This document shows, one piece after another, positions 3,901-32,964 of a DNA stretch of 64,000 bases. This DNA is from Chryseobacterium sp. CY350 (GTDB taxonomy: Bacteria; Bacteroidota; Bacteroidia; Flavobacteriales; Weeksellaceae). The notes beneath the pieces were generated by a model, which did not search any database, was not told the origin of the DNA, and worked only from the letters and a program-made list of their open reading frames with translations. The stretch's first letter is position 1; the number at the start of each line of letters is the position of its first letter. The position numbers and the translations under genes were made by a program. The stretch covers positions 4,026,638 to 4,090,637 of the forward strand of contig NZ_CP116034.1 of the NCBI RefSeq assembly GCF_027945075.1, written 5' to 3'.

Positions 3901-4265
3901 TTGAAAAGAATATTCTTTCTTCCCAAAGCAATATTTTAGTATCCCAAAGTAATATTCTCGCTTCCCAAAGTAATATTCTTGTAACCTAAAGTAATATTCT
4001 TATGTCCCAAAGTAATATTTTAGAATCTCAAAGTAATATTCTTGTAACCCAAAAGAATATTGTTGCTTCCCAAAATAATATTCTTGTTTCCCAAAGTAAT
4101 ATTGTTGCTTCCCAAAGTAATATTCTTGTAACCCAAAAGAATATTCTTGCAACCCAAAGTAATATTCTTGCAACCCAAAGTAATATTTTTGCATCCCAAA
4201 GTAATATTCTTGTAACCCAAAAGAATATTGTTGCTTCCCAAAATAATATTGTTGCTTCCCAAAAC
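3901..4265. repeat. 21-bp direct tandem repeat array, locus 1 (16 full units plus edges)
   Basis: From 3922 to 4257 there are sixteen exact-length 21-base units with consensus CCCAAAGTAATATTCTTGYWW. A degenerate unit precedes at 3901-3921 and a broken one follows at 4258-4265. There are no spacers. Variation is concentrated in the last five bases (GTAA, GCTT, GCAA, TTAGAAT) and at AAAG/AAAA. A three-unit block at 4027-4089 recurs at 4195-4257, so the array grew by multi-unit duplication. Because 21 is divisible by three, several frames stay open through the array, and none shows synonymous bias. The same unit in reverse complement forms the array at 32713-32964. Confidence 0.95.
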
Positions 4266-4332
4266 TAAAATGAGACATCTTTACATTAAATAGTTAAAAT
4301 AATAGTAAATTAAAACGATAAAATAATTAAGA

Positions 4333-5205
4333 ATGAAAAACACTTTCATCATCCTGTTGCTGATAGGATTTTCAATTTTGAAAGCACAAGAAATAAAACC
4401 ATATCAGTTCTACGACAAAAAAGGAAAAGAGATAAAAACCGATAAGCTCGTTAAAGAATTAGCCGATTATGATGTTGTTTTCTTTGGTGAAAACCACAAT
4501 AATTCCATTAATCACTGGCTTCAACTGAAAATCACCGAAGCTTTATTTGAAAAGAAAAACGGACAGTTAATTCTGGGAGCAGAAATGTTTGAAAGAGACA
4601 ATCAATCCCAACTGAATAATTATTTAAATGGAATATACGATGCTAAAACATTGAAAGACTCAGCCCGTCTTTGGAATAATTATGCAACAGATTACAAACC
4701 GTTGGTTGATTTTGCCAAAGACAAAAAACTAAAATTTATCGCGACCAATGTTCCCAGAAAATATGCTTCTCAAACTGCAAAAGAAGGTTTGGAATCATTA
4801 AATAAATTAAGCGAAAAAGATAAAACTTATATTGCGCAACTCCCAATCAAAGTGACCTTAGAAACTCCCGGTTATCCTGAAATGAAAAAAATGATGGGCG
4901 ATCATGCCGAAGGTACCAAAGTGATGAACTTTATCTCTGCGCAAGCCATTAAAGACGCAACGATGGCAGAATCTATCCTGAAAAATTATGAACCCGGAAA
5001 GACATTCATTCATTACAACGGAAATTTCCACAGCAAAGAATTTGGCGGAATTTACTGGTACATCAAACAGAAAAATCCTAATCTGAAAATGGCGGTCATC
5101 TCCGTATTCGAATCTGAAGATCCTGAATTAAAAATTCCAGAGAAAGAATATATCCCGACAGATTTTAATCTGATCATTCCGGCAGATATGACAAAAACTT
5201 ATTGA
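4333..5205 (+). CDS. ChaN/Tiki-family haem-binding, iron-regulated protein
   Basis: 290 residues. Residues 1-18 are a signal peptide (MKNTFIILLLIGFSILKA) without a lipobox cysteine, so it is exported but not a lipoprotein, unlike ChaN of Campylobacter. The family motif GENH (52-55) is followed by LGAEMFERD near residue 80, and HYNGNFHSKEFGG near 235 gives the second conserved histidine region. ChaN proteins bind haem and are iron-regulated. The Tiki superfamily also includes metalloproteases. Position next to hmuTUV-hmuS supports a haem role. It is separated from hmuS by the tandem array, so it has its own promoter or depends on readthrough. Confidence 0.8.
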   Translation: MKNTFIILLLIGFSILKAQEIKPYQFYDKKGKEIKTDKLVKELADYDVVFFGENHNNSINHWLQLKITEALFEKKNGQLILGAEMFERDNQSQLNNYLNGIYDAKTLKDSARLWNNYATDYKPLVDFAKDKKLKFIATNVPRKYASQTAKEGLESLNKLSEKDKTYIAQLPIKVTLETPGYPEMKKMMGDHAEGTKVMNFISAQAIKDATMAESILKNYEPGKTFIHYNGNFHSKEFGGIYWYIKQKNPNLKMAVISVFESEDPELKIPEKEYIPTDFNLIIPADMTKTY

Positions 5206-5294
5206 ATTCTTTTCCACAGATTTCACAGATCATTATGTGAAAAAGATCAGCTATATCAGCAAAATCTACGAGAAAAAACTCATGATGCAATCAA

Positions 5295-5350
5295 TAGGAA
5301 CGGGCTTTAGCCCGTTTTAGTGAAAATAAATTCAATCGGCTTTAGCCAAA
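5295..5350. repeat. Hairpin repeat with two GGCTTTAGCC cores
   Basis: The perfect stem AACGGGCT/AGCCCGTT (5299-5306 and 5309-5316) has a two-base centre. The core GGCTTTAGCC recurs at 5338-5347. It lies between the ChaN-like gene and the deformylase-like gene. It may act as a weak terminator but lacks a good T-run. It resembles a REP-type dispersed palindrome. Confidence 0.6.
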
Positions 5351-5390
5351 ACATAAAAACATTCTATATTTGTTCAACATTCCAGCAAAA

Positions 5391-6020
5391 ATGAAAAAAT
5401 TCCCTCTTTTCTTCGTCTTCTTTATCGTTTTTATTAACGCTCAAAAACTGACTACAGCTGAGATTTCCTTAATTAATCAAGGTGATGTCAAAACGCTAAT
5501 ACCGATATATCAAACAGCAGATTCTCATCAACACGCCGTTTTATTGGATCAGTCAACAGAAATTGATCCTACCGATCCGAATACCGCAACATTAGTTTCT
5601 AGAATGAAACAATCTCTTCTTTCCACAGATGGTGGAGTAGGAATTGCCGCGCCGCAGGTCGGTATCAATAGAAAAGTAATTTGGGTTCAGCGGTTTGACA
5701 AGCCGGATGAACCATTAGAATACTTTATTAATCCGGTAATCACGTGGAAATCGCAACTCCAGAATCTCGGTAGGGAAGGAGATCTTTCGATTGCTGATTT
5801 TAACGGACAATTTTACAGAAGTCAGGTTATTCAGTTGGAATATTTAGATTTGAAAGGGCAAAAATATTCAGAGATTGTAGAAGGTTTTACCGCTGTTATT
5901 TTCCAGCACGAGATCGACCATCTTTTCGGAATCTTAATTTCAGATAAAAAAGAAAAAGAACTGACTGATGAGTATATAAAGGTGGATGCTTATAAGAAGA
6001 GTGATGCTGTGGGGAGGTAA
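5391..6020 (+). CDS. Exported peptide-deformylase-like protein lacking the motif-2 cysteine
   Basis: 209 residues from the start chosen here. Seven residues upstream there is another ATG, but MKKFPLFFVFFIVFINAQ is a typical flavobacterial signal peptide and fixes the start at 5391. Deformylase motif 1 is GVGIAAPQVG (82-91) and motif 3 is HEIDH (173-177). Motif 2, normally EGCLS with the metal-ligand cysteine, reads EGDLS, with Asp131 instead of Cys (codon gat at 5781). Cytoplasmic deformylase removes formyl groups from nascent N-termini. A signal peptide and a changed metal ligand suggest a different, periplasmic role. Activity is uncertain. Confidence 0.8.
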   Translation: MKKFPLFFVFFIVFINAQKLTTAEISLINQGDVKTLIPIYQTADSHQHAVLLDQSTEIDPTDPNTATLVSRMKQSLLSTDGGVGIAAPQVGINRKVIWVQRFDKPDEPLEYFINPVITWKSQLQNLGREGDLSIADFNGQFYRSQVIQLEYLDLKGQKYSEIVEGFTAVIFQHEIDHLFGILISDKKEKELTDEYIKVDAYKKSDAVGR

Positions 6021-6045
6021 GTATTTTGGCTTTTATACTAGACGT

Positions 6046-6627
6046 TTAGGTAATAAATGTGTTTGTAATCTCTTTTATGATCCAACTTCCATCTTTTTGC
6101 TTTTCAAGTAAATATCCAAAACCAATTCCAAATACTGAGTCACGATATATGCTTTCGATATAAACAAAATTATCATTAAAATATACCGGATTTGAAAATT
6201 GATATAGTTGTACTCGTTTATCAATCTCTTGTTTATTTGCTATTTGAATGTTTGAATTTATCTTAGTATCAATATATAAGGAATTAAAGATATAGATGTT
6301 CTGTTTTAATAAATTTATTGAATCAGATTTTCTGTTTTTAAATTTACTCCCTTTTAAATCTAATAGACGAATAATATTTCTATTGAAAAATGGAGGAGGT
6401 CCTGGTTCTTCACCTAAAATCTCTTTCTGACTTGGAACATAAATTTTTAATTTTTGAAATTCCGGATTTATTAAAAATTTGTAATTTGCATTAAAGCTAT
6501 TTCGTTTGGATTCATATTTCAAAATAGTATTTAATATCTTGTTTACTTCTATTTTTTCTTTCATTTCACTCTTAGTGCAACTAATTAATAAAGTCAAAGA
6601 AATAATTAGCAAAAATATTTTATTCAT
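6046..6627 (-). CDS. Hypothetical lipoprotein
   Basis: 193 residues from the start at 6627, chosen because MNKIFLLIISLTLLISC is a lipoprotein signal peptide with lipobox LLISC. The open frame extends 23 residues further upstream without added sense. The mature part is hydrophilic, with no domain I recognise. It may lie at the outer or inner membrane facing the periplasm. It is convergent with the deformylase-like gene. It is more AT-rich than its neighbours, a hint of accessory origin. Confidence 0.7.
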   Translation of the reverse strand: MNKIFLLIISLTLLISCTKSEMKEKIEVNKILNTILKYESKRNSFNANYKFLINPEFQKLKIYVPSQKEILGEEPGPPPFFNRNIIRLLDLKGSKFKNRKSDSINLLKQNIYIFNSLYIDTKINSNIQIANKQEIDKRVQLYQFSNPVYFNDNFVYIESIYRDSVFGIGFGYLLEKQKDGSWIIKEITNTFIT

Positions 6628-6693
6628 ATCGAAAAGCTTTATAATTAAAAGTACATATAAAACTTGAAAAACATTAAACTTATTTAATTTAAA

Positions 6694-6726
6694 CAAAAAA
6701 AATCCGCCTCCAAAGGAAGCAGATTT
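6694..6726 (-). terminator. Terminator after ohr
   Basis: Imperfect 12-base stem: 6700-6711 pairs with 6715-6726 around AAA, with two mismatches. On the minus strand it is followed by a run of seven T. Confidence 0.7.
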
Positions 6727-6748
6727 ATATAATTTAAAAGAAAAAATC

Positions 6749-7171
6749 TTAGTTATTCGTTACCGAAAGTTTCACCTCAATATTATTTCTAGTCGCATTA
6801 GAGTACGGACAAATCTGATGAGCTTTTTCAGTCAGTTCCTGAGCTTTTTCAAGAGAAACTCCGGGAATGTTAACGTCTAATTCAGCGGCCAGACCAAATC
6901 CACCGTTATCTATCTGTCCGATGCTTACTTTTGCAGCAACCGAAGTTTCTCCTGTTTCGATTTTAGATTTACTGATGATCAAATTCAATGCACTGTCAAA
7001 ACAAGCCGCATATCCTGCTGCGAAAAGCATTTCGGGATTGGTAAAATCGTCATTTGCTCCGCCTAATCCTTTTGGCATTCTTACCTCAAGATCCAAAACT
7101 CCGTTTTCGCTTTTTACCTGTCCGTTTCTTCCGCCTTTTGCGGTAACGCTGGTTGTATATAATGTTTTCAT
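6749..7171 (-). CDS. ohr: Organic hydroperoxide resistance protein (Ohr, OsmC family)
   Basis: 140 residues, full length for Ohr. The two redox cysteines are visible: Cys57 in AAGYAACFDSAL and Cys121 in HQICPYSNATRNN, the latter being the Ohr-specific C-terminal motif. Ohr is a thiol peroxidase that reduces organic and lipid hydroperoxides, with lipoylated proteins as reductant in characterised members. It is the last gene of a three-gene unit with ohrR (5-base gap) and a nitroreductase, and lipB, needed for lipoylation, is the next gene upstream on the same strand. Confidence 0.93.
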   Translation of the reverse strand: MKTLYTTSVTAKGGRNGQVKSENGVLDLEVRMPKGLGGANDDFTNPEMLFAAGYAACFDSALNLIISKSKIETGETSVAAKVSIGQIDNGGFGLAAELDVNIPGVSLEKAQELTEKAHQICPYSNATRNNIEVKLSVTNN

Positions 7172-7176
7172 TTATT

Positions 7177-7617
7177 TTATTTTTGAATTTTATTTAAAAT
7201 TTTGTCGACTGTTTCTTTCAGTTCCAGAAGATCTTCTGTTGAAAGATTCAGTTTTTCCTGCATTTTTGCCGGAATTTCGCAGGCTTTTTGTTGTAAATTT
7301 TTTCCTATTTCACTTAAAAAAACTTGTACAACTCTTTCATCTTCCTTTTTTCTTTTTCGGAGGATAAAACCTTTAGATTCCAGTCTTTTAAGAAGTGGTG
7401 TTATAGTTCCGCTGTCGAGATAGAGTTTTTCACCAATCTGATTGACCGTCAATCCGTCTTTTTCCCAAAGCACCATCATCACAAGATATTGCGAATAGGT
7501 AATGTCTATTTCATCAAGAAACGGACGGTGCAAACCGGTAATTTCTTTTGCGATGACGTATAGCGGAAAGCATAGCTGATTTCCCAATTTGAGTGACTCG
7601 TGATTTTCCATGATCAA
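7177..7617 (-). CDS. ohrR: MarR-family peroxide-sensing repressor OhrR
   Basis: 146 residues with a MarR winged helix-turn-helix (about 45-110; LTVNQIGEKLYLDSGTITPL is the recognition region, followed by the KRKKEDERVV wing). The sensing cysteine of OhrR is present as Cys16 in GNQLCFPLYVIAKEI. Peroxide oxidation of this residue releases the repressor from DNA in characterised OhrR. The start may be Met1 or Met3. It is co-directional with ohr and the nitroreductase. A matching operator lies in the promoter upstream of the nitroreductase gene, suggesting autoregulation of the whole unit. Confidence 0.92.
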   Translation of the reverse strand: MIMENHESLKLGNQLCFPLYVIAKEITGLHRPFLDEIDITYSQYLVMMVLWEKDGLTVNQIGEKLYLDSGTITPLLKRLESKGFILRKRKKEDERVVQVFLSEIGKNLQQKACEIPAKMQEKLNLSTEDLLELKETVDKILNKIQK

Positions 7618-7638
7618 CAGCGATTTTGAAACTAAATA

Positions 7639-8271
7639 TTATTTTCTGATAATAAATTCCTCCATCGGAATTCTTACCTTCTTCATGTGAGAAAGATAGT
7701 CGTTTTCCAGATCTCTGTAACCGAGATATAAAAGACTTACACTTTTGAGACCCAATTCTCTCAAACCTAAAATTTCATCTACCACTTCATTGCTGAAACC
7801 TTCCGCTGGAGTAGAATCTATCTTCAACTCTGCAGCCTGAGCCATTGCTAAACCTAATGCAATATAAGTTTGTCTTGCAGTGTGCGCGAAATATTGATCA
7901 GGAGTTTGTGCACCATACATTTCTTTGATTTTATCGGTATAACTGCTGAATCGACCTCTCGGTAAATCTCTTACATCTGTGTGATGATCATAAACTTTGT
8001 CAATTTTTTCATCAGAATAACTGTCCCATGCAGCAAAAACCAAAACGTGCGAACAGTCGCTCATCACCTCAGGATTTAGTGCGCCTTTCACCATTTTCTC
8101 TTTCAATTCCTGGTTTTCAACTACAATCACGCGGAATGGTTGCAAACCTGATGAGGTAGGTGCCAATCTTGCAGCTTCTAAAATTTTATTTAAATGTTCT
8201 TCTGATACTTTTTTTGTTGAGTCGTATGCTTTTACAGCGTGTCTCCAGTTTAAATCTTCTATTAACGACAT
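7639..8271 (-). CDS. NAD(P)H-dependent nitroreductase-family oxidoreductase
   Basis: 210 residues, typical of NfsB-like FMN enzymes. WRHAVKAYD near the N-terminus and EAARLAPTSSGLQPFRVIVV (about 32-51) form the FMN-binding region, and GLRELGLKSVSLLYLGYR is near the C-terminus. Members reduce nitro compounds or quinones with NAD(P)H. As first gene of the ohrR-ohr unit (22-base gap to ohrR) it is probably induced by organic peroxides. The actual substrate cannot be told from sequence. Confidence 0.87.
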   Translation of the reverse strand: MSLIEDLNWRHAVKAYDSTKKVSEEHLNKILEAARLAPTSSGLQPFRVIVVENQELKEKMVKGALNPEVMSDCSHVLVFAAWDSYSDEKIDKVYDHHTDVRDLPRGRFSSYTDKIKEMYGAQTPDQYFAHTARQTYIALGLAMAQAAELKIDSTPAEGFSNEVVDEILGLRELGLKSVSLLYLGYRDLENDYLSHMKKVRIPMEEFIIRK

Positions 8272-8337
8272 TTGTTTTATTATTTTATTATTTGTTAAAT
8301 TTTGACTTGAATAATTAAATATTCAATTTTGATAAAT

Positions 8338-8368
8338 CAAAGGTAGTAAACAATTAAATTGTGTGCAA
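8338..8368 (-). promoter_or_regulatory. Bacteroidota promoter with overlapping OhrR operator
   Basis: On the minus strand TTG (8368-8366), a 20-base spacer and TACCTTTG (8345-8338) match the Bacteroidota -33/-7 consensus (TTG, 19-21, TAnnTTTG). The spacer contains ACAATTTAATTGT (8362-8350), which matches the palindrome I recall for OhrR operators (ACAATT-AATTGT). A second related AT palindrome occurs at 8380-8391. A repressor bound there would block RNA polymerase for the nitroreductase-ohrR-ohr unit. Confidence 0.75.
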
Positions 8369-8424
8369 TTTAATTTTGGAATTTAAATTGTAGATGAAAT
8401 CTATTTTCTGTATTATGAATTTTT

Positions 8425-8459
8425 GTAAAAAGAAAATCCATTGCAATAACAATGGATTT
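8425..8459 (-). terminator. Terminator after lipB
   Basis: Perfect ten-base stem AAATCCATTG/CAATGGATTT (8434-8443, 8450-8459) with a six-base loop. On the minus strand a T-rich tract follows. Confidence 0.85.
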
Positions 8460-8484
8460 ATATGATCTAATAATGTGTTTACGG

Positions 8485-9219
8485 TTAAATATTGTTTTTA
8501 ACCAATTCCGCTCCAAAAACATCTGCAAAATGCTTTTTGATCTTCAGTTTAATATTTTCAACTTCTTCGGATGTCAATTCTCTTTCCAATTCTCTTTTCA
8601 ACGAAGTGACTTGCTTATCTTTAATTCCACATGGAACAATGTATTCAAAGTAGCGCATATCAGTGTTGACATTGAAAGCAAAACCATGCAAAGTAACCCA
8701 GCGCGAAGCTTTTACACCCATCGCACAGATTTTTCTGGCGTAAGGTTTTCCGACATCAAGCCAAACTCCGGTTTCTCCTGGTGAACGTTCACCTTTTAAA
8801 CCAAGTTCTGCCATCGTTCGGATAATCACTTCTTCAAGATTTCGCATATATAAATGAATATCAGTAAAGAAGTTCTCAAGATCAAGAATCGGATAACCTA
8901 CAATCTGTCCGAAACCGTGATAGGTAATATCTCCGCCGCGGTTTACCTTTACAAATGTGGCTTCGATTTCTTTTAATTTATCAATTCCAGCCAACATATT
9001 TTCTTCATGACCACTTTTCCCTAAAGTATATACATGAGGATGCTCTACCAAAAGAAAGTGGTTTGAAGTTGTCTGGCGTTCTTCCTCTGGTAAGTCACGA
9101 TTTTTGACTTTGGTGTCGATGATGTCTTTCATCAGTTTTTCCTGATATTCCCAGGAAGACTGATACTCTTTTACACCAAGATCTTCAAATGCTACGACTT
9201 TATTTTGATATGTGTTCAT
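8485..9219 (-). CDS. lipB: Octanoyl-[acyl carrier protein]:protein N-octanoyltransferase
   Basis: 244 residues. RGGDITYHG (94-102) is the LipB signature, Lys163 in ARKICAMGVK and Cys197 in VPCGI are the catalytic pair. It transfers octanoate from acyl carrier protein to lipoyl domains of 2-oxoacid dehydrogenases and the glycine cleavage H protein, the first step of lipoate synthesis. gcvT at 49975 needs the lipoylated H protein. It lies 31 bases downstream of trpA's start-side neighbour on the same strand as the peroxide unit but has its own terminator. A long N-terminal linker (about residues 38-52) is usual in Bacteroidota versions. Confidence 0.94.
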   Translation of the reverse strand: MNTYQNKVVAFEDLGVKEYQSSWEYQEKLMKDIIDTKVKNRDLPEEERQTTSNHFLLVEHPHVYTLGKSGHEENMLAGIDKLKEIEATFVKVNRGGDITYHGFGQIVGYPILDLENFFTDIHLYMRNLEEVIIRTMAELGLKGERSPGETGVWLDVGKPYARKICAMGVKASRWVTLHGFAFNVNTDMRYFEYIVPCGIKDKQVTSLKRELERELTSEEVENIKLKIKKHFADVFGAELVKNNI

Positions 9220-9250
9220 GCCTTTAATTAACAGGCAAATTTAGTGATTT

Positions 9251-9985
9251 TTAATTTTTTATTGAATGAATAAAATCTATGGCATTTATCTTCCAATCTT
9301 TATCGTTCAGCAAAATATTGACGAAGGCAGTTCCTATGATTCCGCCGTCTGCTTTTTCGGTAACGTTTTCAAAATCTTCTTTAGATTTAATCCCAAAACC
9401 GATCATAACTGGATTTTTCAGTGGGAGAGAAGCAATTCTTGAAAGATAATCTTCGTTTTTTAAAACTGCATTTTCATTTCCTGTGGTGGAAGACGAACTT
9501 ACCGCATACAAAAATCCCGAACTTAGAGAATCAAGATATAAAATTCTTTCGTCAGAAGTTTCAGGTGTAATTAAAAAAGTAAAATTCAGATGATATATTT
9601 GTAAAATTTTCTGATAATTTTTTTCAAATTCAATCGGCGGAAGATCTGGAATTATTAAACCTGAAACTCCGCTGTCCGAACATTCCCGACAAAAATTTTC
9701 AAAACCAAAACTTAAAACAGGATTAATATATCCCATCAAAATAATTGGAATTTTGATTTCGTTTTTAATATTTTTTAATTGGGATAAAAGTTTTTCGATC
9801 GTCATTCCGTTTTTTAAGGCCAATTCATGCGCTTTTTGAATGACCGGCCCATCAGCAACAGGATCAGAATAAGGCATTCCGATTTCCAGCATATCGGCTC
9901 CGGAATTTTGTATGAGTCTTATAATGTCAGCAGTATCTTCCAATTCTGGAACTCCTGCTGTGAAATATATATTTAGTTTTTTCAT
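9251..9985 (-). CDS. trpA: Tryptophan synthase alpha subunit
   Basis: 244 residues, slightly shorter than the usual 260-270. Catalytic Glu34 and Asp45 are seen in LEIGMPYSDPVADGPVIQKA, and VMIGFGIKSKEDF near residue 195 binds the phosphate. It cleaves indole-3-glycerol phosphate to indole, which tunnels to TrpB. Last gene of the trp operon. Confidence 0.96.
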   Translation of the reverse strand: MKKLNIYFTAGVPELEDTADIIRLIQNSGADMLEIGMPYSDPVADGPVIQKAHELALKNGMTIEKLLSQLKNIKNEIKIPIILMGYINPVLSFGFENFCRECSDSGVSGLIIPDLPPIEFEKNYQKILQIYHLNFTFLITPETSDERILYLDSLSSGFLYAVSSSSTTGNENAVLKNEDYLSRIASLPLKNPVMIGFGIKSKEDFENVTEKADGGIIGTAFVNILLNDKDWKINAIDFIHSIKN

Positions 9986-10045
9986 TTTTTAAAATTTACG
10001 ATTTAAAGTTAAAAGCTAGATAAAAGAGCTTTGAAAGATAAATTT

Positions 10046-11236
10046 CTAATTGATAACTTCTAATTTTTTCAAATACGTTTCCATATCCTTATCGCCACGG
10101 CCGCTCAAGCAGATCACGACAACATCATTTTCATTAAATTTCTTTTTATTAAGAACGGCCAGCGCATGAGCACTTTCCAAAGCAGGAATTATTCCTTCCA
10201 ATTTTGTAAGTTCAAAAGCACATTCTAAAGCTTCGCCATCATTAATGCTGAAAAATTCAGCACGATTTTCCGTGAACAAATTGGCATGAAAAGGCCCGAT
10301 TCCCGGATAATCCAGACCCGCGGAGATTGAGTGAGGTTCAATAACCTGTCCGTCATCTGTCTGCATAACAAGACTTTTGCTTCCATGCAAAACGCCCAAA
10401 GTTCCCAGAAAAGTAGTTGCAGCAGATTTTCCTGATTCGACGCCGAAACCTCCTGCTTCCGCAGCGATAATTTTCACATTTTCTTCATTTACAAAATGAT
10501 AAAAAGTTCCTGCCGCATTGCTTCCTCCACCAACGCAGGCAATTACGTAATCAGGATTTTTCCTTCCTATTTGCTCGTGAAGCTGCTCCTTAATTTCTTC
10601 CGAAATCACACTTTGAAATCTCGCCACGAGATCAGGAAAAGGATGCGGACCAACCACACTTCCGATCACGTAATGTGTTGTGGTAGAGTTGTTAATCCAA
10701 TCCCGTAAAGCTTCATTTACAGCATCTTTCAAAGTTTTTGAACCAGAAGTGGCAGGAATTACGGTTGCTCCCAACATTTTCATTCTCCCAACATTCGGCG
10801 CTTGTCTTGCGATGTCAACTTCTCCCATGTAAACGATACATTCTAAACCTAGCAAAGCGCACGCTGTAGCGGTGGCAACGCCGTGTTGTCCGGCTCCGGT
10901 TTCTGCGATAATTCTGTGTTTTCCAAGTCGTTTTGCCAGTAAAACCTGTCCGAGAGCATTGTTGATTTTATGCGCGCCTGTATGATTAAGATCTTCTCGT
11001 TTGAGATAAATTTTCGTTTTGTATTTTTCACTTAAATTTCTCGCAAAATATAGCGGAGTAGCACGACCGACATAATTCTTCAGCAAATCCTGATATTCAA
11101 CCTGAAATTCTTCCGATTCTATGATATTTAAATAATTATTTTGAAGTTCTTCCACATTTGGATACAACATTTCAGGGACAAAAGCTCCGCCAAATTCGCC
11201 GTAATATCCGTTTTGATCTGGGTTTTTATAATTCAT
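10046..11236 (-). CDS. trpB: Tryptophan synthase beta subunit
   Basis: 396 residues, full length for the TrpB1 class. The PLP lysine is Lys90 in [13 protein letters not shown], the phosphate-binding glycine loop is [10 protein letters not shown], and the start [12 protein letters not shown] is family-typical. It condenses indole with serine to tryptophan and pairs with TrpA 60 bases downstream. Upstream, 273 bases separate it from trpF, an unusually wide gap filled by a hairpin repeat and a transposase remnant. Confidence 0.97.
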
Positions 11237-11258
11237 TTTTTACTTTTTTATAATTGCA

Positions 11259-11303
11259 GTCCCAACGGGACGATTTAACAAAGAATAGGAATTCATTCCT
11301 ATT
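11259..11303. repeat. Paired palindromes (REP/BIME-like) next to transposase remnant
   Basis: First hairpin: GTCCC AAC GGGAC (11259-11271). Second: AATAGGAAT TC ATTCCTATT (11284-11303), a perfect nine-base stem. Twelve bases separate them. They lie between trpB and the 3' end of an IS200-like transposase remnant, the arrangement expected of REP palindromes mobilised by RAYT-type transposases. Confidence 0.7.
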
Positions 11304-11329
11304 AATTTTTTTGGAATTAAAATCAAACA

Positions 11330-11590
11330 TCAATCCCAAAGATATTTTTCATCATAGACAATTTTGTATTTTTTATAGTAGTTCATCATCTCGTGTTTAA
11401 AATCATATTCCTTATGATACTGTCTTTGGTTTTTAATATATTCAGTCACTGCAAAATATTATGAGGACTTACAGAAAATGCTCCATAACCATTCTGCCAA
11501 AAAAAATCTTCATATTTTATTCCTCTTGTTTTCAACCATTTTGATGAAATTGCTTTTACTTCCCGAACAAATTTCATCAACGCTTTTTAA
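11330..11590 (-). pseudogene. C-terminal remnant of IS200-like / REP-associated (Y1) transposase
   Basis: Reading the minus strand from about 11587, one frame gives KALMKFVREVKAISSKW and then KYEDFFWQNGYGAFSVSPHN. A frameshift near 11435 follows, and the next frame gives AVTEYIKNQRQYHKEYDF and ends KIVYDEKYLWD-stop (TGA at 11332-11330). WQxGYGAFSVS and the terminal YDExYLWD are hallmarks of the C-terminal part of Bacteroidota Y1 (IS200/RAYT) transposases as I know them. The N-terminal half with the HUH motif and catalytic Tyr is absent. The first 75 bases are read in another frame as the end of trpF. Confidence 0.85.
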
Positions 11591-12987: not shown

Positions 12988-13013
12988 TTTTGTTGATCAG
13001 TTTCTATTTCGTG

Positions 13014-13090
13014 CATATTGCGACCCGGCTTGAACGGAACTCCTTTTGCAAAGCAAAAGAGTGGGAGTGGTAGACGGAATTTGTCGCCCT
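13014..13090. repeat. Structured hairpin repeat inside the trp operon (trpD-trpC gap)
   Basis: An outer stem GCGAC/GTCGC (13020-13024, 13083-13087) encloses an inner hairpin CTCCTTTTGC AAA GCAAAAGAG with one bulge (about 13040-13061), then GGGAGTGGTAGACGGAA. It is much more G+C-rich than the neighbouring spacers and fits a dispersed intergenic element. It has no clear T-run, so it should not terminate the operon but could slow or process the message. Confidence 0.6.
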
Positions 13091-13095
13091 AAAAA

Positions 13096-14082: not shown

Positions 14083-14098
14083 AATCGTGAGATTTGAA

Positions 14099-14692: not shown

Positions 14693-14702
14693 TTTCTTAG
14701 AT

Positions 14703-16133: not shown

Positions 16134-16148
16134 TTTAAATTTTTAGAC

Positions 16149-17051: not shown

Positions 17052-17054
17052 TTC

Positions 17055-20861: not shown

Positions 20862-20863
20862 TT

Positions 20864-23214: not shown

Positions 23215-23310
23215 ATGATTTATTTTCAACATTAAAGTTAAGGATAAATTTCTGTGTTAAAATATGATATAAAACATTCAATTGTTTCCGGTATTTCAGC
23301 TTAACTTTGA

Positions 23311-25380
<2,070 letters not shown>

Positions 25381-25402
25381 TCATCTTTAAAAATAATACA
25401 GT

Positions 25403-25437
25403 AAAGACTCCATTGAAAAATGGAGTCTTTTTTTTAT
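25403..25437 (+). terminator. Terminator after gyrB
   Basis: Perfect twelve-base stem AAAGACTCCATT/AATGGAGTCTTT, loop GAAA, then seven T. Confidence 0.95.
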
Positions 25438-25521
25438 CTTGAAACTAATAAATCTCATATTAATGATAATTATTTAACATTTTCTTAAGAATTTTTATAT
25501 TTTTGGGAAAATTAAAAAACC

Positions 25522-27417
25522 ATGATTAAATTTCTTTGCCTTGGTGCTTTTTCTTTAGCATCAATGTACTATTCGCAAAGTTATCCGATCTCTGAAATCA
25601 GTGAAAATCTGAAGAAAAATGCAAGTGTTGTCATCAGAAATGAAAGCACAATTGTTGAGATCAATAAAGTCGACGAAATTGTTTATAAAAATCTTTCTGT
25701 TGTTACCATTCTGAATCGTGAGGCTATTTCTTATTCGGTTCCAAAGATCTATTACGAGAAAGGTGATGTGATCTCGAATATAAAAGTTACTGTGTTTGAT
25801 GAGAAAGGCACGAAAATTAAAAGCTTTTCTAAAGGCGATTTTTCAGATGTGGCAGCCAATTCTCAGGGAACATTCTATTCGGATAACAGAATAATGGTTT
25901 TACCTTTTACACCAACATCATTTCCCTACACGGTTGAGTTTAGCTATGATCAAAAAGATCAAAACACGATCTTTATTCCAGATTTTACACCTTTTTACAA
26001 TTACAATATTTCATTAGAAAAAAGTAATTTTAAAATCATTAATAAATCAGGAATTAATCTGCGCTCAAAAACGTATGATTCTCCGTTTAAATATGCATCG
26101 GTTCAAATTCAGGATAATGGTAACGAAAAGTTGTACACGTATCAGAACGTTCCGGCAATTGATAATGCAGAATTGGCTCCTAATCCGCAGAAAATTTTAC
26201 CGAAAGTAAGCTTTTCGTTAGACCAGTTTAATTTAGTTGGTAAAAAAGGAAATATCACTTCATGGAAAGATTTTGGAGTTTGGTACAATAACAATCTTTT
26301 GACTCCGGTTTCTGTCTCAACGCCACAGATAAAATCTGAAATTGCGGCACTTAATCTTTCCGGAAGTACAGAAGATAAAGTGAAGAAAGTCTTTCAGTAT
26401 ATGCAGAGTAAAACAAGATATATTTTTGTAGCTCTGGGAATTGGCGGTTGGCAACCTATGACGCCCGATGAGGTTCAGAAAAAAGGTTATGGCGACTGTA
26501 AAGGTCTCAGTAATTACATGAAAACTCTTCTCGATGAGGCCGGAATTCCGTCTTATTACTGTAAAATAAATATGAATGAATCGCCAATTTCTTTCGATAA
26601 AGATTTCCCAAAGATGGGCGGCAATCATATTATTCTAATGGTTCCTACAGAGAAAGGAAATATCTGGCTTGAAAATACGTCACAAGATATCGCTTTCAAT
26701 CATTTAAGTTATCATACAACCGACAGAAATGTTCTGGCGGTAATGCCTACGGGAATTGAAGTGATGGAAACGCCGAGCTACACATCGAGCCAAAATAAAG
26801 AGAAGCAGATACTGAATATTCAGGTAAATCCGGATAAAACGATTACCGGTAAAGGTAAATTTTCTTATACCGGAAACCAATATGACTTTAATATGAGTTA
26901 CATCGCGCTTTCTCAGAAAGAAAAGAATGAGGCGGTGAAGTCTAAATTTTCGACTTTAAATTTTGAAAATGTTGAGATGGTAAATTTCAGCAATAATAAA
27001 GATTTGGCGTCTATAGATTTTGATTTGAATTTTAAAGCATCAAATTATTCTAAAATGATGGGTGACAGTTTTATTTTCCGTGCCGTACCTATTTATTCTA
27101 ATGGTTTTTATCATCAGGACGAAAACAGAGAATTGCCTTTTGAAAATAAATTTTCTTTTGAAGACGAGTACGAAATCGTTTATCAGATTCCGGCAAATTA
27201 TGCCATAGAAGAAATGCCACAGAACGGAATTCTGACTTCAGATTTTGGAACTTATATCCTCACATTTGAGAAAAAACAGGATCAAATTGTGGTAAAAAGA
27301 ATTGTTACAATCAAAAAAGGGATTTATTCTAAAGAAAAATTTAACGATTACGTCAACTTTAGAAAGAAAATAATGAATGCCGATAACTCAAAAATTTTAA
27401 TAACCAAAAAATCATAA
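25522..27417 (+). CDS. Exported DUF3857 / transglutaminase-like protein with intact Cys
   Basis: 631 residues with a signal peptide (MIKFLCLGAFSLASMYYSQ). DUF3857 occupies about 50-220 (VVTILNREAI, KIKSFSKGDFSDVAA). A transglutaminase-like core at about 275-410 has GYGDCKGLSNYMKTLLDEAG with Cys326, GGNHIILMVP as the His motif, and LENTSQDIAF with the Asp. A C-terminal beta region resembles DUF3858. Role unknown. In Bacteroidota these proteins are periplasmic and often occur in pairs. It is followed after one base by a second family member. Confidence 0.85.
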   Translation: MIKFLCLGAFSLASMYYSQSYPISEISENLKKNASVVIRNESTIVEINKVDEIVYKNLSVVTILNREAISYSVPKIYYEKGDVISNIKVTVFDEKGTKIKSFSKGDFSDVAANSQGTFYSDNRIMVLPFTPTSFPYTVEFSYDQKDQNTIFIPDFTPFYNYNISLEKSNFKIINKSGINLRSKTYDSPFKYASVQIQDNGNEKLYTYQNVPAIDNAELAPNPQKILPKVSFSLDQFNLVGKKGNITSWKDFGVWYNNNLLTPVSVSTPQIKSEIAALNLSGSTEDKVKKVFQYMQSKTRYIFVALGIGGWQPMTPDEVQKKGYGDCKGLSNYMKTLLDEAGIPSYYCKINMNESPISFDKDFPKMGGNHIILMVPTEKGNIWLENTSQDIAFNHLSYHTTDRNVLAVMPTGIEVMETPSYTSSQNKEKQILNIQVNPDKTITGKGKFSYTGNQYDFNMSYIALSQKEKNEAVKSKFSTLNFENVEMVNFSNNKDLASIDFDLNFKASNYSKMMGDSFIFRAVPIYSNGFYHQDENRELPFENKFSFEDEYEIVYQIPANYAIEEMPQNGILTSDFGTYILTFEKKQDQIVVKRIVTIKKGIYSKEKFNDYVNFRKKIMNADNSKILITKKS

Positions 27418-27418
27418 G

Positions 27419-29353
27419 ATGAAAAAACTTTTAATGATCTGTGTAATCCTGATGACTTCATCAATAGTTGCGCAGAAGCATGAGTTTCTGAAAATGCCAA
27501 AATTCACAATAGAAGATTTAAAAAAATCAAAATCTAATATTGACGAAAAAGCTCCCGCTGAGATTCTTTACCGATCGATACATTACCGTATTGATCCTTA
27601 CAACGGTCAATTAATAAAAAACTTCGCTTACAGAGTAAAGATTTACGATAAAGATAAATCTGAAGACTGGCTGAATCTCGAAATTTCTTTACGAGAGAAT
27701 AAATCGGGAAGCAGAGAAACTCTAAACTCTATAAAAGCTTTGGTCTACAATCTCGAAAATGATCAGATTGCTGAGACAAAAGTTGATAAAAGTTCGAAAT
27801 TTAAATCGAAAGAAAATAAATATACCACAGTAAGTAAATACGCGTTCCCAAATATAAAAAACGGTTCGGTGCTTGAGTATCAGTACGAGGTGATTTCTCC
27901 TTTTCTGTATGAAATTCCTGTAATTTATATGGAACTTGATACTCCGTCGATGTATTCTGAATATATTTTAGATTCGCCTACCAACATGTCTTATCACATC
28001 GATTTCACGGGCGGTCTGAAGCCCAAACATCAAAAAGTGGGCGAAGAGTTTCTGTATGGTACAGATTCTAAAACATACCGATTTGCTTACGAAAATGTAA
28101 AGCCTTTTAAGGAAGAAAAATTCGTGAGAAACAGTGATAATTACAGAACTAAAATCCGGGCAGAGCTGCATTCTACATTTTTTAATAACGGACTGAAAAC
28201 TTATACCTCTACCTGGGAAGACATCAGAAAAAGTCTTTGGGAAGATGAAGAGTTTGGTCAGCAATACAAAAGAGAACGATTGGTAAAGGATTTAATTCCC
28301 ATTACGATCTCTCAGGAAAAAGATGAACTTAAGAAAGCTAATGCAATTTTCGACCATGTTAAAAATTCTTACACATGGAATCAGACCACAGGATTTTATA
28401 CCGAAAATGGAATTAAAGAACTGGCAAAAACCAAAACAGGAAATACGGGAGATCTAAACCTTATGTTGATCAATATGTTGCGTGCTGAAAAGCTGAAAGC
28501 ATATCCGATTTTAATTTCGACAATTAAAAATGGTTTTGTAAATCTTACGTTCCCAAATATCGGAAACTTTAATTACGTCATCGCAGCAGTAGAAATTGAT
28601 AAAAATGTTTATCTCTACGATGCAACATCGAAGCAGGCGAAAGAAGGTGTTCTCCCAGGTCGGGTTTGGAACAGCAATGGGCTTTTGCTGAGAGACGAAA
28701 AAGCTGAGGTAATCTCGCTAAATAATATAAAAGTAAGCTATACAACGCATACATTAAAAGCGAAGATAAATCCCGACGGAACACTAACCGGGCAATATCA
28801 GGATGAAGACGAAGGTTTGCTTGCTCTTAACGCTAAAGAAAATTTTGATGAAAACCCCGATCGGTACAGAAAACAGTACAAAGAAAATTTCTCAGTTGAT
28901 TTTTCTAATATCAGTTCTCGGGTTTTAGATAATGGCGAATTCAGATCTACGATGAGTTTTACAGCAAATAACTTAGTCGATAATCTTGGCAAGAGAAAAA
29001 TTATCAATCCGCTTTTATTTTTGCATCAGACGACAAACGATTTTGATCAGCAGGAAGAAAGAAAATATATGATCGATTTTATTTCGCCGATGACCAAAAC
29101 AAAAATTGTAGAAATAGAAATTCCTGAAGGATATGACATTACGGAATTACCGAAAAGTAAGAAAATCGTTACTCAGGATAAGGAGATCAGCTATTCTTAT
29201 ACCGTAGAAAAAAAGGAAAATAAAATTTTAACGATTTCTAAATTTGAAATTGCAAGTGCAGATTATCCTAAAGAATATTATCCTGCCTTTAAACAAATCT
29301 GGAAAGTAATCTCCGATAGCGAGAATCAGGTGATGAGTCTGATCAAAAAATAA
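27419..29353 (+). CDS. Exported DUF3857 / transglutaminase-like protein lacking the catalytic Cys
   Basis: 644 residues with signal peptide MKKLLMICVILMTSSIVAQ. Same architecture as the upstream gene: DUF3857 (about 60-235) and a transglutaminase-like core. Where the active-site cysteine should lie, the sequence reads TKTGNTGDLNLMLINMLRAE, so Thr343 replaces Cys. YLYDATSKQAKEG retains the Asp motif. Probably a non-catalytic partner of the upstream protein, coupled by a one-base gap. A terminator follows at 29384. Confidence 0.82.
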   Translation: MKKLLMICVILMTSSIVAQKHEFLKMPKFTIEDLKKSKSNIDEKAPAEILYRSIHYRIDPYNGQLIKNFAYRVKIYDKDKSEDWLNLEISLRENKSGSRETLNSIKALVYNLENDQIAETKVDKSSKFKSKENKYTTVSKYAFPNIKNGSVLEYQYEVISPFLYEIPVIYMELDTPSMYSEYILDSPTNMSYHIDFTGGLKPKHQKVGEEFLYGTDSKTYRFAYENVKPFKEEKFVRNSDNYRTKIRAELHSTFFNNGLKTYTSTWEDIRKSLWEDEEFGQQYKRERLVKDLIPITISQEKDELKKANAIFDHVKNSYTWNQTTGFYTENGIKELAKTKTGNTGDLNLMLINMLRAEKLKAYPILISTIKNGFVNLTFPNIGNFNYVIAAVEIDKNVYLYDATSKQAKEGVLPGRVWNSNGLLLRDEKAEVISLNNIKVSYTTHTLKAKINPDGTLTGQYQDEDEGLLALNAKENFDENPDRYRKQYKENFSVDFSNISSRVLDNGEFRSTMSFTANNLVDNLGKRKIINPLLFLHQTTNDFDQQEERKYMIDFISPMTKTKIVEIEIPEGYDITELPKSKKIVTQDKEISYSYTVEKKENKILTISKFEIASADYPKEYYPAFKQIWKVISDSENQVMSLIKK

Positions 29354-29383
29354 ATTCAGATATAATAAACTAAAAACTGTAAG

Positions 29384-29411
29384 AACCATTCAACTTTTGA
29401 ATGGTTTTTGC
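29384..29411 (+). terminator. Terminator after DUF3857 pair
   Basis: Perfect ten-base stem AACCATTCAA/TTGAATGGTT, loop CTT, then T-run. Confidence 0.9.
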
Positions 29412-29434
29412 ATTGCTAAGAAAAATAATAAATT

Positions 29435-30268
29435 ATGAAAAATATCATTGCTGTTTTAGCAGTTTCTACAATTTTTGCCGTTTCGTCATGTAAAAAGACG
29501 GATTCTAAAAATACTGTTGCAGCAGAAACAGGTGAAAAGATTGAAACTACCGAACAATTTACAGTCGATTCTGTTAAATTGAGTGATTCTACGAAAGTAA
29601 ATAATTTACTGTCACTAAAATACGAGGCGAAAATGCTTGTATTTCCTACGATCAAGGACAAGTCGCTTCTAGACAGTATTTACTATGATAAAAAAGGAAT
29701 TATCGATTTTTCCAAGCAAGGTTTACAAACATTTCTTAATAAAGATAAGGATGAATACTTTGCATCTGTAAAAGAAAAAGACAACAGTTGGATCAACGAT
29801 ATCGCAAGACCTCAAAGCTGGGATACAGGTTCGTTTATGAAACTGAAGTCAAACACAAATGATTTTTTACAGATTGAATACATGTATTCTTCATATGAAG
29901 GAGGAGCGCATGGAAATTATGGTTTTGCTGAAAGAGTTTTTGATCTTAAGAATAAGAAAAGAGTTTTATTAAAAGATATTACAACAATGCCGAAAGCGAG
30001 ATTAGAGGCGCTTCTTACTAAAAATATCAATAACATCCCAAGTGGAACTACAGATTCTCAAGGTGCTGTAAAAAATTCGGAAATGCTGTTGATTGATGCA
30101 ATACCAGCGAACGATAATTTTTATTTTGACGACAAAAATCTGTACTTCCATTACAGTCCGTATGAGATTGCAGCTTTTGCAGCCGGAGATATTGTAATTC
30201 CTGTTTCGTGGGAAGATCTTAAAGGAACGCTTAATCCGCAGTTTAAAGAAAGAATGAAAATTAATTAA
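29435..30268 (+). CDS. DUF3298 (RsiV-like) lipoprotein
   Basis: 277 residues. Lipoprotein signal MKNIIAVLAVSTIFAVSSC, a Ser/Thr linker to about residue 55, then a DUF4163-like segment and DUF3298: YEGGAHGNYGFAERVFDL (about 152-170) and YFHYSPYEIAAFAAGDIVIP near the C-terminus. The RsiV relatives bind lysozyme, while most Bacteroidota members are uncharacterised. The gene lies between two terminators, a single-gene unit. Confidence 0.85.
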   Translation: MKNIIAVLAVSTIFAVSSCKKTDSKNTVAAETGEKIETTEQFTVDSVKLSDSTKVNNLLSLKYEAKMLVFPTIKDKSLLDSIYYDKKGIIDFSKQGLQTFLNKDKDEYFASVKEKDNSWINDIARPQSWDTGSFMKLKSNTNDFLQIEYMYSSYEGGAHGNYGFAERVFDLKNKKRVLLKDITTMPKARLEALLTKNINNIPSGTTDSQGAVKNSEMLLIDAIPANDNFYFDDKNLYFHYSPYEIAAFAAGDIVIPVSWEDLKGTLNPQFKERMKIN

Positions 30269-30272
30269 TATT

Positions 30273-30302
30273 AATGCTTCCAAATCAGGAAGCATTTTTT
30301 AT
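30273..30302 (+). terminator. Terminator after DUF3298 gene
   Basis: Perfect nine-base stem AATGCTTCC/GGAAGCATT, loop AAATCA, then T-run. It ends eleven bases before the lipid kinase start. Confidence 0.9.
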
Positions 30303-30312
30303 TTTTGTGTCA

Positions 30313-31164
30313 ATGGAAAAAGTAGCTTTTATTATCAATCCTTTTTCAGCGAAAAAGAATTATCAGCCCTTTCTGGATGAGCTAAAAACCAAAGCTGAAA
30401 ATCCGTTATACTACATTTCAGAATCAATCTTGGGAACCGACGAGTTTATTCAGAAACATTTTCCAGATACAGATATCTTTGTGGCAATCGGCGGTGACGG
30501 TACGATCTCTACTGTTGCGAAAAACCTTATCAATACAGAAAAAGTCTTAGCTATTTTTCCTGCCGGCTCGGGAAATGGTTTTTCCAACGAAACTCAGTTC
30601 AGTAAAAATTTAGATGAGCTTTTAACAAAATTAAAGCAGAGAAAATCAAGAAAAATAGATACTTTTACGGTCAACGGAAGATTATCCATCAATGTTTCAG
30701 GAACCGGTTTTGACGGAAAAGTGGTAAAAGAATTCGAAAAGACCAGCCGAGGATTTAAAAATTACATTAAAGTATCACTCAAGACTTTTTTCAGTTACAA
30801 ACCCATTAAGCTCAAATTTTTAGACGAAAAATACAAACAGCACAACGGAAAATATTTGATGGTGAATATTGCCAACACCCGCCAATTTGGTAACAATGCA
30901 TACATTGCTCCAATGGCGAGCAAGAGTGACGGTTTGGTAGATATGGTTTTGGTTAAAAAATTTCCGCTGACATATTCGCCTTTATTTGCTTTCAGAATGT
31001 TTACGAAAAAACTGAAAGAAGATGATTACATTACCTATTTGCCCGTTTCTGAAGTAGAATTCAAAGTGAATACCAAAAATTGGCATCTCGATGGAGAATT
31101 TAATAAGATAAAATCTCCGATTCATATTAAAGTGCAGCCTGCGAGTTTGACGATTTTGATATAA
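30313..31164 (+). CDS. Diacylglycerol kinase-family lipid kinase
   Basis: 283 residues from MEKVAFIINPFSAKKN. Longer reading of the frame starts inside the terminator and is rejected. The DAGK catalytic domain has IGGDGTISTVAKNL (nucleotide loop) and FPAGSGNGFSNE, with the C-terminal beta-sandwich. Such YegS/BmrU-like enzymes phosphorylate diacylglycerol or other lipids at the membrane face. The lipid substrate is not known from sequence. No terminator is seen. The next spacer carries a hairpin repeat. Confidence 0.88.
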   Translation: MEKVAFIINPFSAKKNYQPFLDELKTKAENPLYYISESILGTDEFIQKHFPDTDIFVAIGGDGTISTVAKNLINTEKVLAIFPAGSGNGFSNETQFSKNLDELLTKLKQRKSRKIDTFTVNGRLSINVSGTGFDGKVVKEFEKTSRGFKNYIKVSLKTFFSYKPIKLKFLDEKYKQHNGKYLMVNIANTRQFGNNAYIAPMASKSDGLVDMVLVKKFPLTYSPLFAFRMFTKKLKEDDYITYLPVSEVEFKVNTKNWHLDGEFNKIKSPIHIKVQPASLTILI

Positions 31165-31169
31165 TTTAT

Positions 31170-31302
31170 TTTTTTTGGAGCTTAATCCCGCTTTCCGTTG
31201 CAAACCTAACGAAGTGGTTCGACGAAGTCAATCTTTTTTTGTTGTCTTCGGCTTCGCTCAGACATCAAAAAAAGGATTTCCTCTCCAATCGGGGCTAGGA
31301 TT
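31170..31302. repeat. Structured intergenic repeat with 14-base stem
   Basis: Starting GGAGCTTAATCCCGCTTTCC (31177) and ending CGGGGCTAGGA (to 31300). In the middle CTTTTTTTGTTGTC (31233-31246) pairs with GACATCAAAAAAAG (31261-31274) with one mismatch, around a 14-base loop. The outer CCCG/CGGG and AGC/GCT can pair too. It resembles a type of dispersed element I associate with Chryseobacterium/Flavobacterium spacers. It fills most of the gap between two convergent genes and may also end transcription. Confidence 0.65.
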
Positions 31303-31367
31303 TTCGTCTTCGTTAAATAAGTTATCCGTTTTAGAAAGAATTATTTGATACTTATTTAAGAGAAATA

Positions 31368-32648
31368 TCAAACTTCCAACTTCTTTTCGACTTCATTTGG
31401 ATGAGCCAAAGCATATCGCAACTGACCCTTATCCAACTGTTTTTCCCAGTTTGCAACCACTACAGTAGCCACAGAATTTCCAATAACATTGGTTAAAGCG
31501 CGACATTCACTCATAAATTTATCTATTCCCAGAATCAAAGTCATTCCGGCAATCGGAATTTCCGGAACTACTGCCAATGTTGCAGCTAAAGTAACAAATC
31601 CAGCTCCGGTAACTCCGGCAGCACCTTTTGAACTCAGCATTGCAACTAAAAGTAACATCAATTGTTTTTCAAGGGAAAGATCAATATTCAAAGCCTGTGC
31701 GATAAATAATGAAGCCAAAGTCATGTAAATATTGGTTCCATCGAGGTTAAAAGAATAGCCTGTGGGAACTACTAATCCTACAATTGCTTTGGAACAGCCT
31801 GCTTTTTCCAGCTTTTCCATAATTCCCGGAAGTGCAGATTCTGAGGAACTTGTTCCTAAAACCAGAAGAAGTTCTTCCTTCAGATAATACATCAGTTTGA
31901 AAATATTAAAACCATTGTACAACGCAACTGCTCCTAAAACAAGAACGACAAACAGGGCAGAAGTGATGTAGAATGTTCCTACGAGGAAAATTAAATTTAA
32001 TACAGAAGCCAATCCGTATTTTCCGATCGTGAAAGCCATCGCCCCGAAAGCACCGATGGGAGCAAGCTTCATCAGCATATGTACAATTTTGAAAATAGGT
32101 GTTGCCAGATCCTGCAAAAAATCTGTGACCTTTCGGCTTTTTTCTTTGGTTAAAACCAATGCAACACCCATAAGTATTGCAACCAAGAGAACCTGAAGAA
32201 TATTATCACCAACCAACGGACTAAATAAAGTTTCGGGAATAATATTCATCATAAACCCCGTAAGAGTAGTGTCATGAGCTTTCTGCTGATATTGGGAAAC
32301 GTCGCCCGACAAACTTGCGGGATCAATATTGAGTCCGGATCCGGGATGTAAAAGATTTCCCACAATTAATCCGATGATCAAAGCCAGAGTAGAAAATGTA
32401 AAAAAGTAGATCATTGCTTTCACGGCAATTCTTCCTACTTTTTTCAGATCGGTCATGTGAGCAATTCCTAAAGTCAGGGTGATGAAAATGACCGGAGCAA
32501 TGATCATTTTTACTAATTTAATGAATCCGTCACCAAGAGGTTTCATTTTTTCACCTATTTCGGGATAAAATTTTCCTAAGAGAATTCCTGCAATAATGGC
32601 AATAATTACCTGAAAGTAAAGTTGCTGATAGAATTTTTTTGCTTTCAA
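31368..32648 (-). CDS. Dicarboxylate/amino acid:cation symporter (DAACS family)
   Basis: 426 residues with about eight membrane helices and two re-entrant loops. The substrate-binding signatures are [21 protein letters not shown] (serine-rich HP1) and [13 protein letters not shown], followed by [20 protein letters not shown] (HP2). Couples Na+ or H+ flow to uptake of C4-dicarboxylates, glutamate or aspartate, as in DctA/GltP. The exact substrate cannot be decided here. The 5' side faces the second 21-bp array. Confidence 0.9.
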
Positions 32649-32712
32649 AACGTATTTATTTAAAGTGTGAAAAGTAAGAAAATTACTTGGGAAAACAGGA
32701 GTGATGATTTTA

Positions 32713-32964
32713 TAAAATATTGTGTTTACTATGCAAGAATATTGTTTCGGGACGCGAGAATATTGTTTCGGGACGCGAGAATATTGTTTAGGGAAGCTAG
32801 AATATTGTTTTGGGATGCGAGAATATTGTTTTGGGATGCAAGAATATGGTTTCGGGACGCAAGAATATAGTTTCGGGACGAAAGAATATGGTTTCGGGAC
32901 GCGAGAATATTGTTTTGGGATGCAAGAATATTGCTTCCGGATGTGAGAATATTCTTTTAGGGTG
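32713..32964. repeat. 21-bp direct tandem repeat array, locus 2 (11 full units)
   Basis: Eleven units from 32734 to 32964 with consensus CRAGAATATTGTTTYGGGAYG and a degenerate unit before them (32713-32733). The reverse complement (CRTCCCRAAACAATATTCTYG) matches the locus 1 unit CCCAAAGTAATATTCTTG, sharing the CCC-RAA-N2-AATATTCT core. Coupled changes (TTTCGGGACG versus TTTTGGGATG) mark two sub-types. Variation is not third-position biased in any frame. The array lies between the divergent starts/stops of the symporter gene (start at 32648) and ggt (stop at 33083). Confidence 0.95.

Follow-up and report, generated by a model that had tools for sequence, protein, structure and literature searches.

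The last 64 kb of the 4,090,637-bp source contig of Chryseobacterium sp. CY350 (a stretch of 64,000 nucleotides, called the window below) contain two arrays of tandem 21-bp units, array A and array B, which appear to make up one half of a protein-DNA system not described before. A third array lies outside the window at about 3840704-3840994 of the contig, ~190-220 kb from the window arrays and directly 3' of a gene for a protein of ~240 amino acids. Arrays A and B are solo arrays, satellites of this third, gene-linked array. Linkage to the gene, the strict period, the conservation of length, the non-coding nature of the arrays, their co-variation with the protein and with each other, and solo sites common to several species are seen directly. 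From these we infer direct binding, an assembly and a role, and phased binding of the cognate protein to its home array and to the solo arrays is the most likely reading, held with middling confidence.

Both window loci are real and strictly 21-bp periodic, as an earlier note on this DNA had claimed, and here Tandem Repeats Finder and a chain of spaced units agree. The former gave a period of 21 for both, with 17.1 copies and 81% matches in array A and 10.6 copies and 87% matches in array B. The unit chain could take any spacing from 15 to 27 bp, those other than 21 carrying a small penalty, and it picked 21 bp at 16/16 steps in array A and 11/11 in array B. The first locus had been described as sixteen exact units; the spacing is indeed exact, while the count is seventeen and neighbouring units differ in sequence. 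The eleven units given for the second locus hold (about 11 by spacing), and its degenerate ends reach ~32722-32973. Read in the same sense, the consensuses of arrays A and B are ATATTnTTGnnTCCCAAAGTA and ATATTCTnGCnTCCCnAAACA, so that the two arrays belong to one family, as had been proposed. Units are contiguous, and spacers are absent, again in line with the earlier description. A pattern of two units matches the window exactly 18 times, always inside the arrays, and has no match in 100 dinucleotide shuffles, while the single-unit core with up to two mismatches has 34 matches against 4.1 expected. Inside array A (3905-4263) there is an 84-bp higher-order repeat of four units, which suggests block duplication within the array.

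The genome search for further copies that the earlier note had advised is what yields the third array. That note missed this array and the adjacent gene, which tie the family together, because both are outside the window.

In terms of linkage, periodicity was scored at lags 12-33 over the 700 bp after the stop codon of 58 gene copies, many of which are orthologous and hence not 58 independent events. Lag 21 was the top lag in 52/58 copies, with scores of 8.0-214.6, and reached at least 14 in 50/58; L154 and L174 are weak among the 52. The best other lag mostly scored 4-7, and up to 41 in L141, where lag 21 scored 65. Upstream flanks of the same genes gave at most 10.9 at lag 21 where available, L180 excepted, and 29 hmuS-chaN gaps used as a control gave at most 5.9. 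Two distant homologues (L180 and L181) have the array just upstream of the gene instead. The downstream flank of L148 ends at the contig end, and its array is probably the one found on another contig of the same genome (L122). L178, L182 and L183, distant homologues as well, have no 21-bp array. As a further control, lag 21 was top in 40 of 370 other open reading frames (ORFs), mostly from loci fetched for their arrays; 36 of these neighbour listed arrays, two flank a further array in L121 (genome G139), and two score 8.1.

The loci of these three homologues without a 21-bp array contain short tandem repeats with other periods, of 8 bp or 24 bp (L183:1905-1966, L178:1236-1307 and L182:1236-1315), and that of L183 is directly behind the gene. 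These could be chance or a related habit.

Among paralogues at 26-40% identity, which sit at unrelated loci, almost every one is accompanied by an array whose unit is its own. The unit sequence differs greatly among them and the 21-bp period stays constant. Unit profile tracks protein identity (Mantel Spearman 0.618, n=50 gene-linked arrays, null maximum 0.230 in 999 permutations). In 11/11 same-genome paralogue pairs tested, unit profiles were less alike than among orthologues, in two of them by little.

Arrays also recur at the same intergenic sites across species, as read from their flanks with Pfam. Ten solo sites were found, nine of them common to at least two genomes, and orientation is fixed at each. 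Array A occupies site A, between hmuS and chaN (6 genomes), and array B site B, between ggt and a symporter gene (4 genomes); at both sites the arrays run with their neighbours, as the two window arrays do. Site D, at a di-haem peroxidase and PhoX pair, is found in 3 genomes and runs against its neighbours. Sites E, F, G, H, I and J lie at further gene pairs in two or more genomes each, with F, G and H again against their neighbours, and site K is found in one genome. The most frequent site, C, is the gene-linked one, behind the ~240-aa gene facing pnp or a cold-shock gene, and is between converging genes. As each site has an orientation of its own, the opposite directions of the two window arrays, to which the earlier note had drawn attention, are a property of the two sites and not a signal.

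Two ideas on placement were dropped. The first, drawn from the window loci, was that orientation always follows transcription; sites D, F, G and H are opposite. The second was origin-proximal placement. The three arrays of this genome are within ~250 kb of the contig end, and an ORF at the contig start is, by eye, what we take to be DnaA; the arrays of G104 are spread over 1.37 Mb of one contig.

The site data also bear on local cis-regulation, an improbable alternative in which a solo array would be the operator of a neighbouring gene and the protein an ordinary transcription factor. As operators might, array A stops ~70 bp short of chaN, and array B precedes the symporter gene. However, arrays at four sites run against their neighbours, site C is between converging genes, and no function common to the neighbours was seen. 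Furthermore, site A was read in 29 other genomes, the best matches among 59 others with chaN (the five other genomes with array A fall outside this sample). All 29 have hmuS and chaN, separated by a gap of 115-673 bp, without a 21-bp signal. We take hmuS as a site marker of array A; it is not thought to be part of the system. In one of these genomes (L187, G011) the hmuS-chaN gap of 673 bp contains a different, longer repeat ('AAACCACAAATTCCACAAATATTTACTGCA...') in place of the 21-bp array.

Arrays at different sites of one genome change together. Among 39 arrays, similarity was 0.800 between different sites of the same genome (24 pairs), 0.741 between the same site of different genomes (111 pairs) and 0.733 for the remaining pairs (606). 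With genome labels shuffled within sites, 0.800 was reached 0/5000 times. Nine more arrays were added, namely site J of G057 and G315, site F of one metagenome-assembled genome, five site-C arrays of one-array genomes, and site G of G139, with just two units recovered. The values became 0.788 within genomes (27 pairs), 0.745 for the same site and 0.727 for others (0/2000 permutations). If sites evolved alone, same-site arrays would be the most alike; on average they are not, which points to co-evolution in trans. Among the 39, the closest relative of array A is this genome's own gene-linked array. Array B is closest to the gene-linked array in G104, and that of this genome comes second.

Gene and solo arrays also occur together. 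Some copy of the gene is present in 16/17 genomes with solo arrays vs 19/156 others (Fisher 4e-12), and the close-type gene in 13/17 vs 14/156 (Fisher 3e-9), both without phylogenetic correction. The 17 are a subset of the 37 array-bearing genomes described below, with arrays judged from flanking ORFs and G139 not counted. G402, from another family of the order, has a quite different unit and carries a second array of that type on another contig, while the same test in G099 found the gene-linked array only. Satellite arrays are thus not confined to one unit type, nor always present.

As for distribution, an exact-pattern scan of genome contigs placed 14/15 stretches in Chryseobacterium and Epilithonimonas; the fifteenth is a lone match with no array. 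A three-unit sequence model (R1) matched 37/173 genomes of the genus at E 0.001, with units far more varied. Pattern or model found array-bearing genomes in at least 7/148, 10/296 and 37/173, lower bounds because the early patterns and the model were built from ATATTCTTGC-type units, missing other unit types and favouring exact 21-bp spacing. The number of arrays found per genome is one to four. Across 450 aligned units, variability is lowest in ATATT and in the AA at positions 17-18 and highest in the middle. In the 39 arrays, neighbouring units differ at ~5.7 of 21 bases, and spacing is 21 in 408/415 steps, a count biased upward by the 21-bp-spaced probes that found the arrays.

A comparison less open to this bias comes from site C. 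In four related genomes the array block shows 95.3% identity and 0 indel events across its 201 columns, and the two flanks, at 88.7% and 73.3% identity, have 6 and 30 indel events (totals of six genome pairs); a fifth genome, G018, was left out of the count, its 5' flank being off the contig. Array length is guarded more strictly than sequence, as expected if the units keep one face of the helix.

These results can be set against a selfish or neutral satellite, expanded by slippage and homogenised by gene conversion, with no host function and with a protein that may promote its spread. The sparse distribution in the genus would agree with such a satellite, and so would repeats of higher order, like that of 84 bp in array A, the empty site A in all the other genomes read there, and G088, which keeps arrays without the gene. 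Neutral repeats, however, should gain indels freely, and only 7/415 steps are not 21, with an indel-free array at site C beside indel-rich flanks. Near-constant adjacency to one gene family with very different units is also unexpected from slippage, and we regard the satellite as rather unlikely.

We also considered whether the arrays encode protein. A hidden coding repeat of seven residues would agree with the length, 21 bp being seven codons; one forward frame of array B is open, and an ORF of array A has a marginal match to an antifreeze beta-roll (E 0.00017, below the Pfam cut-off). On the contrary, array A has stops in all six frames, and an open frame is present in 42/76 arrays, near the 37.6 expected from column shuffles, with none in 34/76. 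The ATATT core hardly varies, although in a coding repeat part of its bases would fall on free third codon positions. At the level of sequence a coding repeat is very improbable, and the arrays are probably a DNA element.

In terms of RNA, RNAalifold of 65 rows predicts 0 pairs in the three-unit consensus, and Rfam has 0 matches in the window at gathering score. A structured RNA was rejected on these grounds. Some divergent unit types contain a dyad. Among 52 gene-linked copies, a terminator-like hairpin stands before the array in 24 and within the first three units in 17 more (41/52 vs 0.9 expected), so most gene-linked arrays lie where the gene transcript should have ended. In L128, L133-L138 and L140 the hairpin is apparently built from the first units, with the dyad TTACAT...ATGTAA (by eye). 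The earlier note had offered a source of short RNAs among three possible roles, and the position of the hairpins makes this less likely. Another reading is an RNA system, in which the arrays would be transcribed and the repeated 21-nt RNA would be the ligand of the protein, as with the Avd ribonucleoprotein; we find this unlikely. The best of the three guessed roles is a protein-binding array, which remains putative.

The ~240-aa protein has a predicted all-helical fold and is predicted to consist of two homologous helical domains, or bundles. The family to which the site-C gene belongs has the motif SETGHAKNVAN...YNP...STSQQSYD...YxPNE...VKKYVKS. No Pfam family was assigned at E 0.01 to two copies, six copies had only weak matches below cut-off at E up to 10, and the copies tested had no NCBIfam family. 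A gene copy is present in 35/173 genomes of the genus (E 1e-20) and in 9/395 genomes sampled across the phylum (E 1e-8), and a profile search of sequence databases found 3233 related proteins at E 1e-5. In Epilithonimonas xixisoli (L070) the gene by the site-C array extends over two reading frames; it seems to be a broken copy whose array is still there.

Under phased binding, the arrays would be the DNA half of a two-part trans-acting system and the ~240-aa protein the other half. Protein molecules would dock side by side on units two helical turns apart, on one face of the DNA, both at the home array and at solo arrays such as A and B in the window. The resulting cooperative protein-DNA assemblies would serve to organise these sites on the chromosome or to mark them, and might also draw them together. 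More tentatively, this may be an undescribed system of Bacteroidota, made of a duplicated helical-bundle protein and its cognate 21-bp array in helical phase, the two encoded together as a unit. Its pairs would diverge in specificity from paralogue to paralogue, and the home pair would maintain satellites in trans at chosen sites, with cooperative centromere-like or chromosome-bridging assemblies.

Several observations weigh against phased binding. No recognised DNA-binding domain is present in the predicted fold, searches of PDB and viral structures gave no match at E 0.001 or better, and 2/6 protein copies checked are acidic, with isoelectric points of 5.2 and 5.6. The upward bias in the spacing count belongs here too. 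In 11/52 gene-linked copies no hairpin was found ahead of the array or in its first three units (4 only at or after the end, 7 with none found), and some arrays may be transcribed through. Common descent would also be expected to produce co-variation of unit and protein, and the association of gene and arrays across genomes is confounded by shared ancestry. The cognate gene is lacking in 4/17 solo-array genomes (G088, G011, G306 and G315). Of these, G088 has no gene copy at E 1e-20, yet carries two strong solo arrays (L087 and L086), where arrays may outlive the gene; the other three have only paralogues at 32-40% identity, with their own arrays of other units. Finally, the site-J array of G057 is close to its counterpart in G315 (0.927), not to the rest of the G057 arrays (0.66-0.72). 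These site-J arrays (L104 and L117) may belong to another pair or may have been recently exchanged.

The features of the window and the home gene are collected in the table below. The gene neighbours named in the earlier note are right: HemS/ChuX and ChaN at the first locus, and a dicarboxylate symporter and gamma-glutamyltranspeptidase at the second. A hairpin resembling the one between hmuS and array A is present in the five array-less genomes inspected (L186, L187, L188, L194 and L211).

Table. Features of the window (window positions) and the home gene outside it (contig positions).
Feature	Position	Strand	Description	Basis
Solo array A	3905..4263	+	17 tandem 21-bp units, consensus ATATTnTTGnnTCCCAAAGTA	Tandem Repeats Finder, spacing chain
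Solo array B	32736..32957	-	~11 tandem 21-bp units, minus-strand consensus ATATTCTnGCnTCCCnAAACA	Tandem Repeats Finder, spacing chain
hmuS	2621..3649	+	Haem-degrading HemS/ChuX protein, upstream of array A	Pfam PF05171, PF06228
Hairpin	3670..3709	+	Terminator-like hairpin and T run, between hmuS and array A	by eye
chaN	4333..5205	+	ChaN-like haem-binding protein, downstream of array A	Pfam PF04187
Symporter gene	31368..32648	-	Sodium:dicarboxylate symporter, downstream of array B in minus direction	Pfam PF00375
ggt	33083..34816	-	Gamma-glutamyltranspeptidase, upstream of array B in minus direction	Pfam PF01019
Home gene (L131, L077)	G000:C1:3841120-3841833	-	Outside the window; terminator-like hairpin and 15-unit array behind stop codon	

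On the 3' side of the site-C array, L106, L109, L118, L119 and L122 have CTCCGGAG-like dyads and 'AGCAATATCTGTGTAGAA', with a presence that varies among close relatives (by eye). These stretches look as if they were a small inserted element like a repetitive extragenic palindrome (REP).

The gene family has thousands of database members, and with the adjoining DNA it gains a first testable partner. Its pairs of a diverged protein and a diverged 21-bp unit are, in effect, a specificity experiment already made by nature. Bound arrays would represent a new type of chromosomal protein-DNA assembly; should the arrays be unbound, a phased 21-bp array behind the gene in most copies still wants an explanation.

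The earlier note knew of no described element with this unit; Rfam gave none, and no published description of such arrays was found in the open-access literature, where our search was narrow and tests their absence weakly. Like the variable-number tandem repeats (VNTRs) used for typing, the arrays are tandem repeats between genes. A Flavobacterium psychrophilum VNTR set has units of 4-9 bp, selected at four to ten bases, so that 21-bp arrays could not appear in that set (PMC4501049). A phage or plasmid origin was rejected: one paralogue (L156) had no phage match and, by tblastn, nothing among 72,556 plasmids, the unit pattern gave 0 stretches in viral contigs, and the two window arrays had no plasmid matches. 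One contig labelled viral in the IMG/VR collection (L184, 37,680 bp) does have the gene, with a terminator-like hairpin and then a 21-bp array behind it.

Clustered regularly interspaced short palindromic repeats (CRISPR) likewise form a regular repeat array beside a protein gene. Here, in contrast, the whole 21 bp is repeat, without spacers and with the 21-bp step described above, and no known defence protein was seen, PADLOC-DB giving 0 families for the 3 family members scanned. The Avd protein of diversity-generating retroelements is a helical bundle, with moderate structural similarity over 97 residues that is within helical-bundle noise; unlike Avd, the ~240-aa protein would have two fused helical domains, and no reverse transcriptase was found among ten neighbouring ORFs scanned with Pfam.

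Two further groups share traits with the arrays and their gene. REP-associated tyrosine transposases (RAYTs) belong to the Y1/HUH transposases, and REPs are short palindromes, dispersed in high copy number. As with RAYTs and REPs, the gene is flanked by cognate repeats, and dispersed copies track the gene's own, as the likeness within genomes indicates. Unlike them, the gene shows no sign of a Y1/HUH transposase (no Pfam family in the copies tested, and an all-helical predicted fold), and the units are strictly tandem, with a consensus that is not palindromic and few arrays per genome. Plasmid iterons with their Rep initiators, and the parC/ParR centromere arrays, are direct repeats about two helical turns apart that are read by the protein of an adjacent gene. 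Our arrays are also direct repeats in helical phase (21 bp) beside a protein gene, but they are chromosomal and in most cases lie 3' of the gene, with satellites at unrelated loci, and neither a Rep nor a Par family was detected. The arrays and their gene have traits in common with both groups but lack one defining feature of each.

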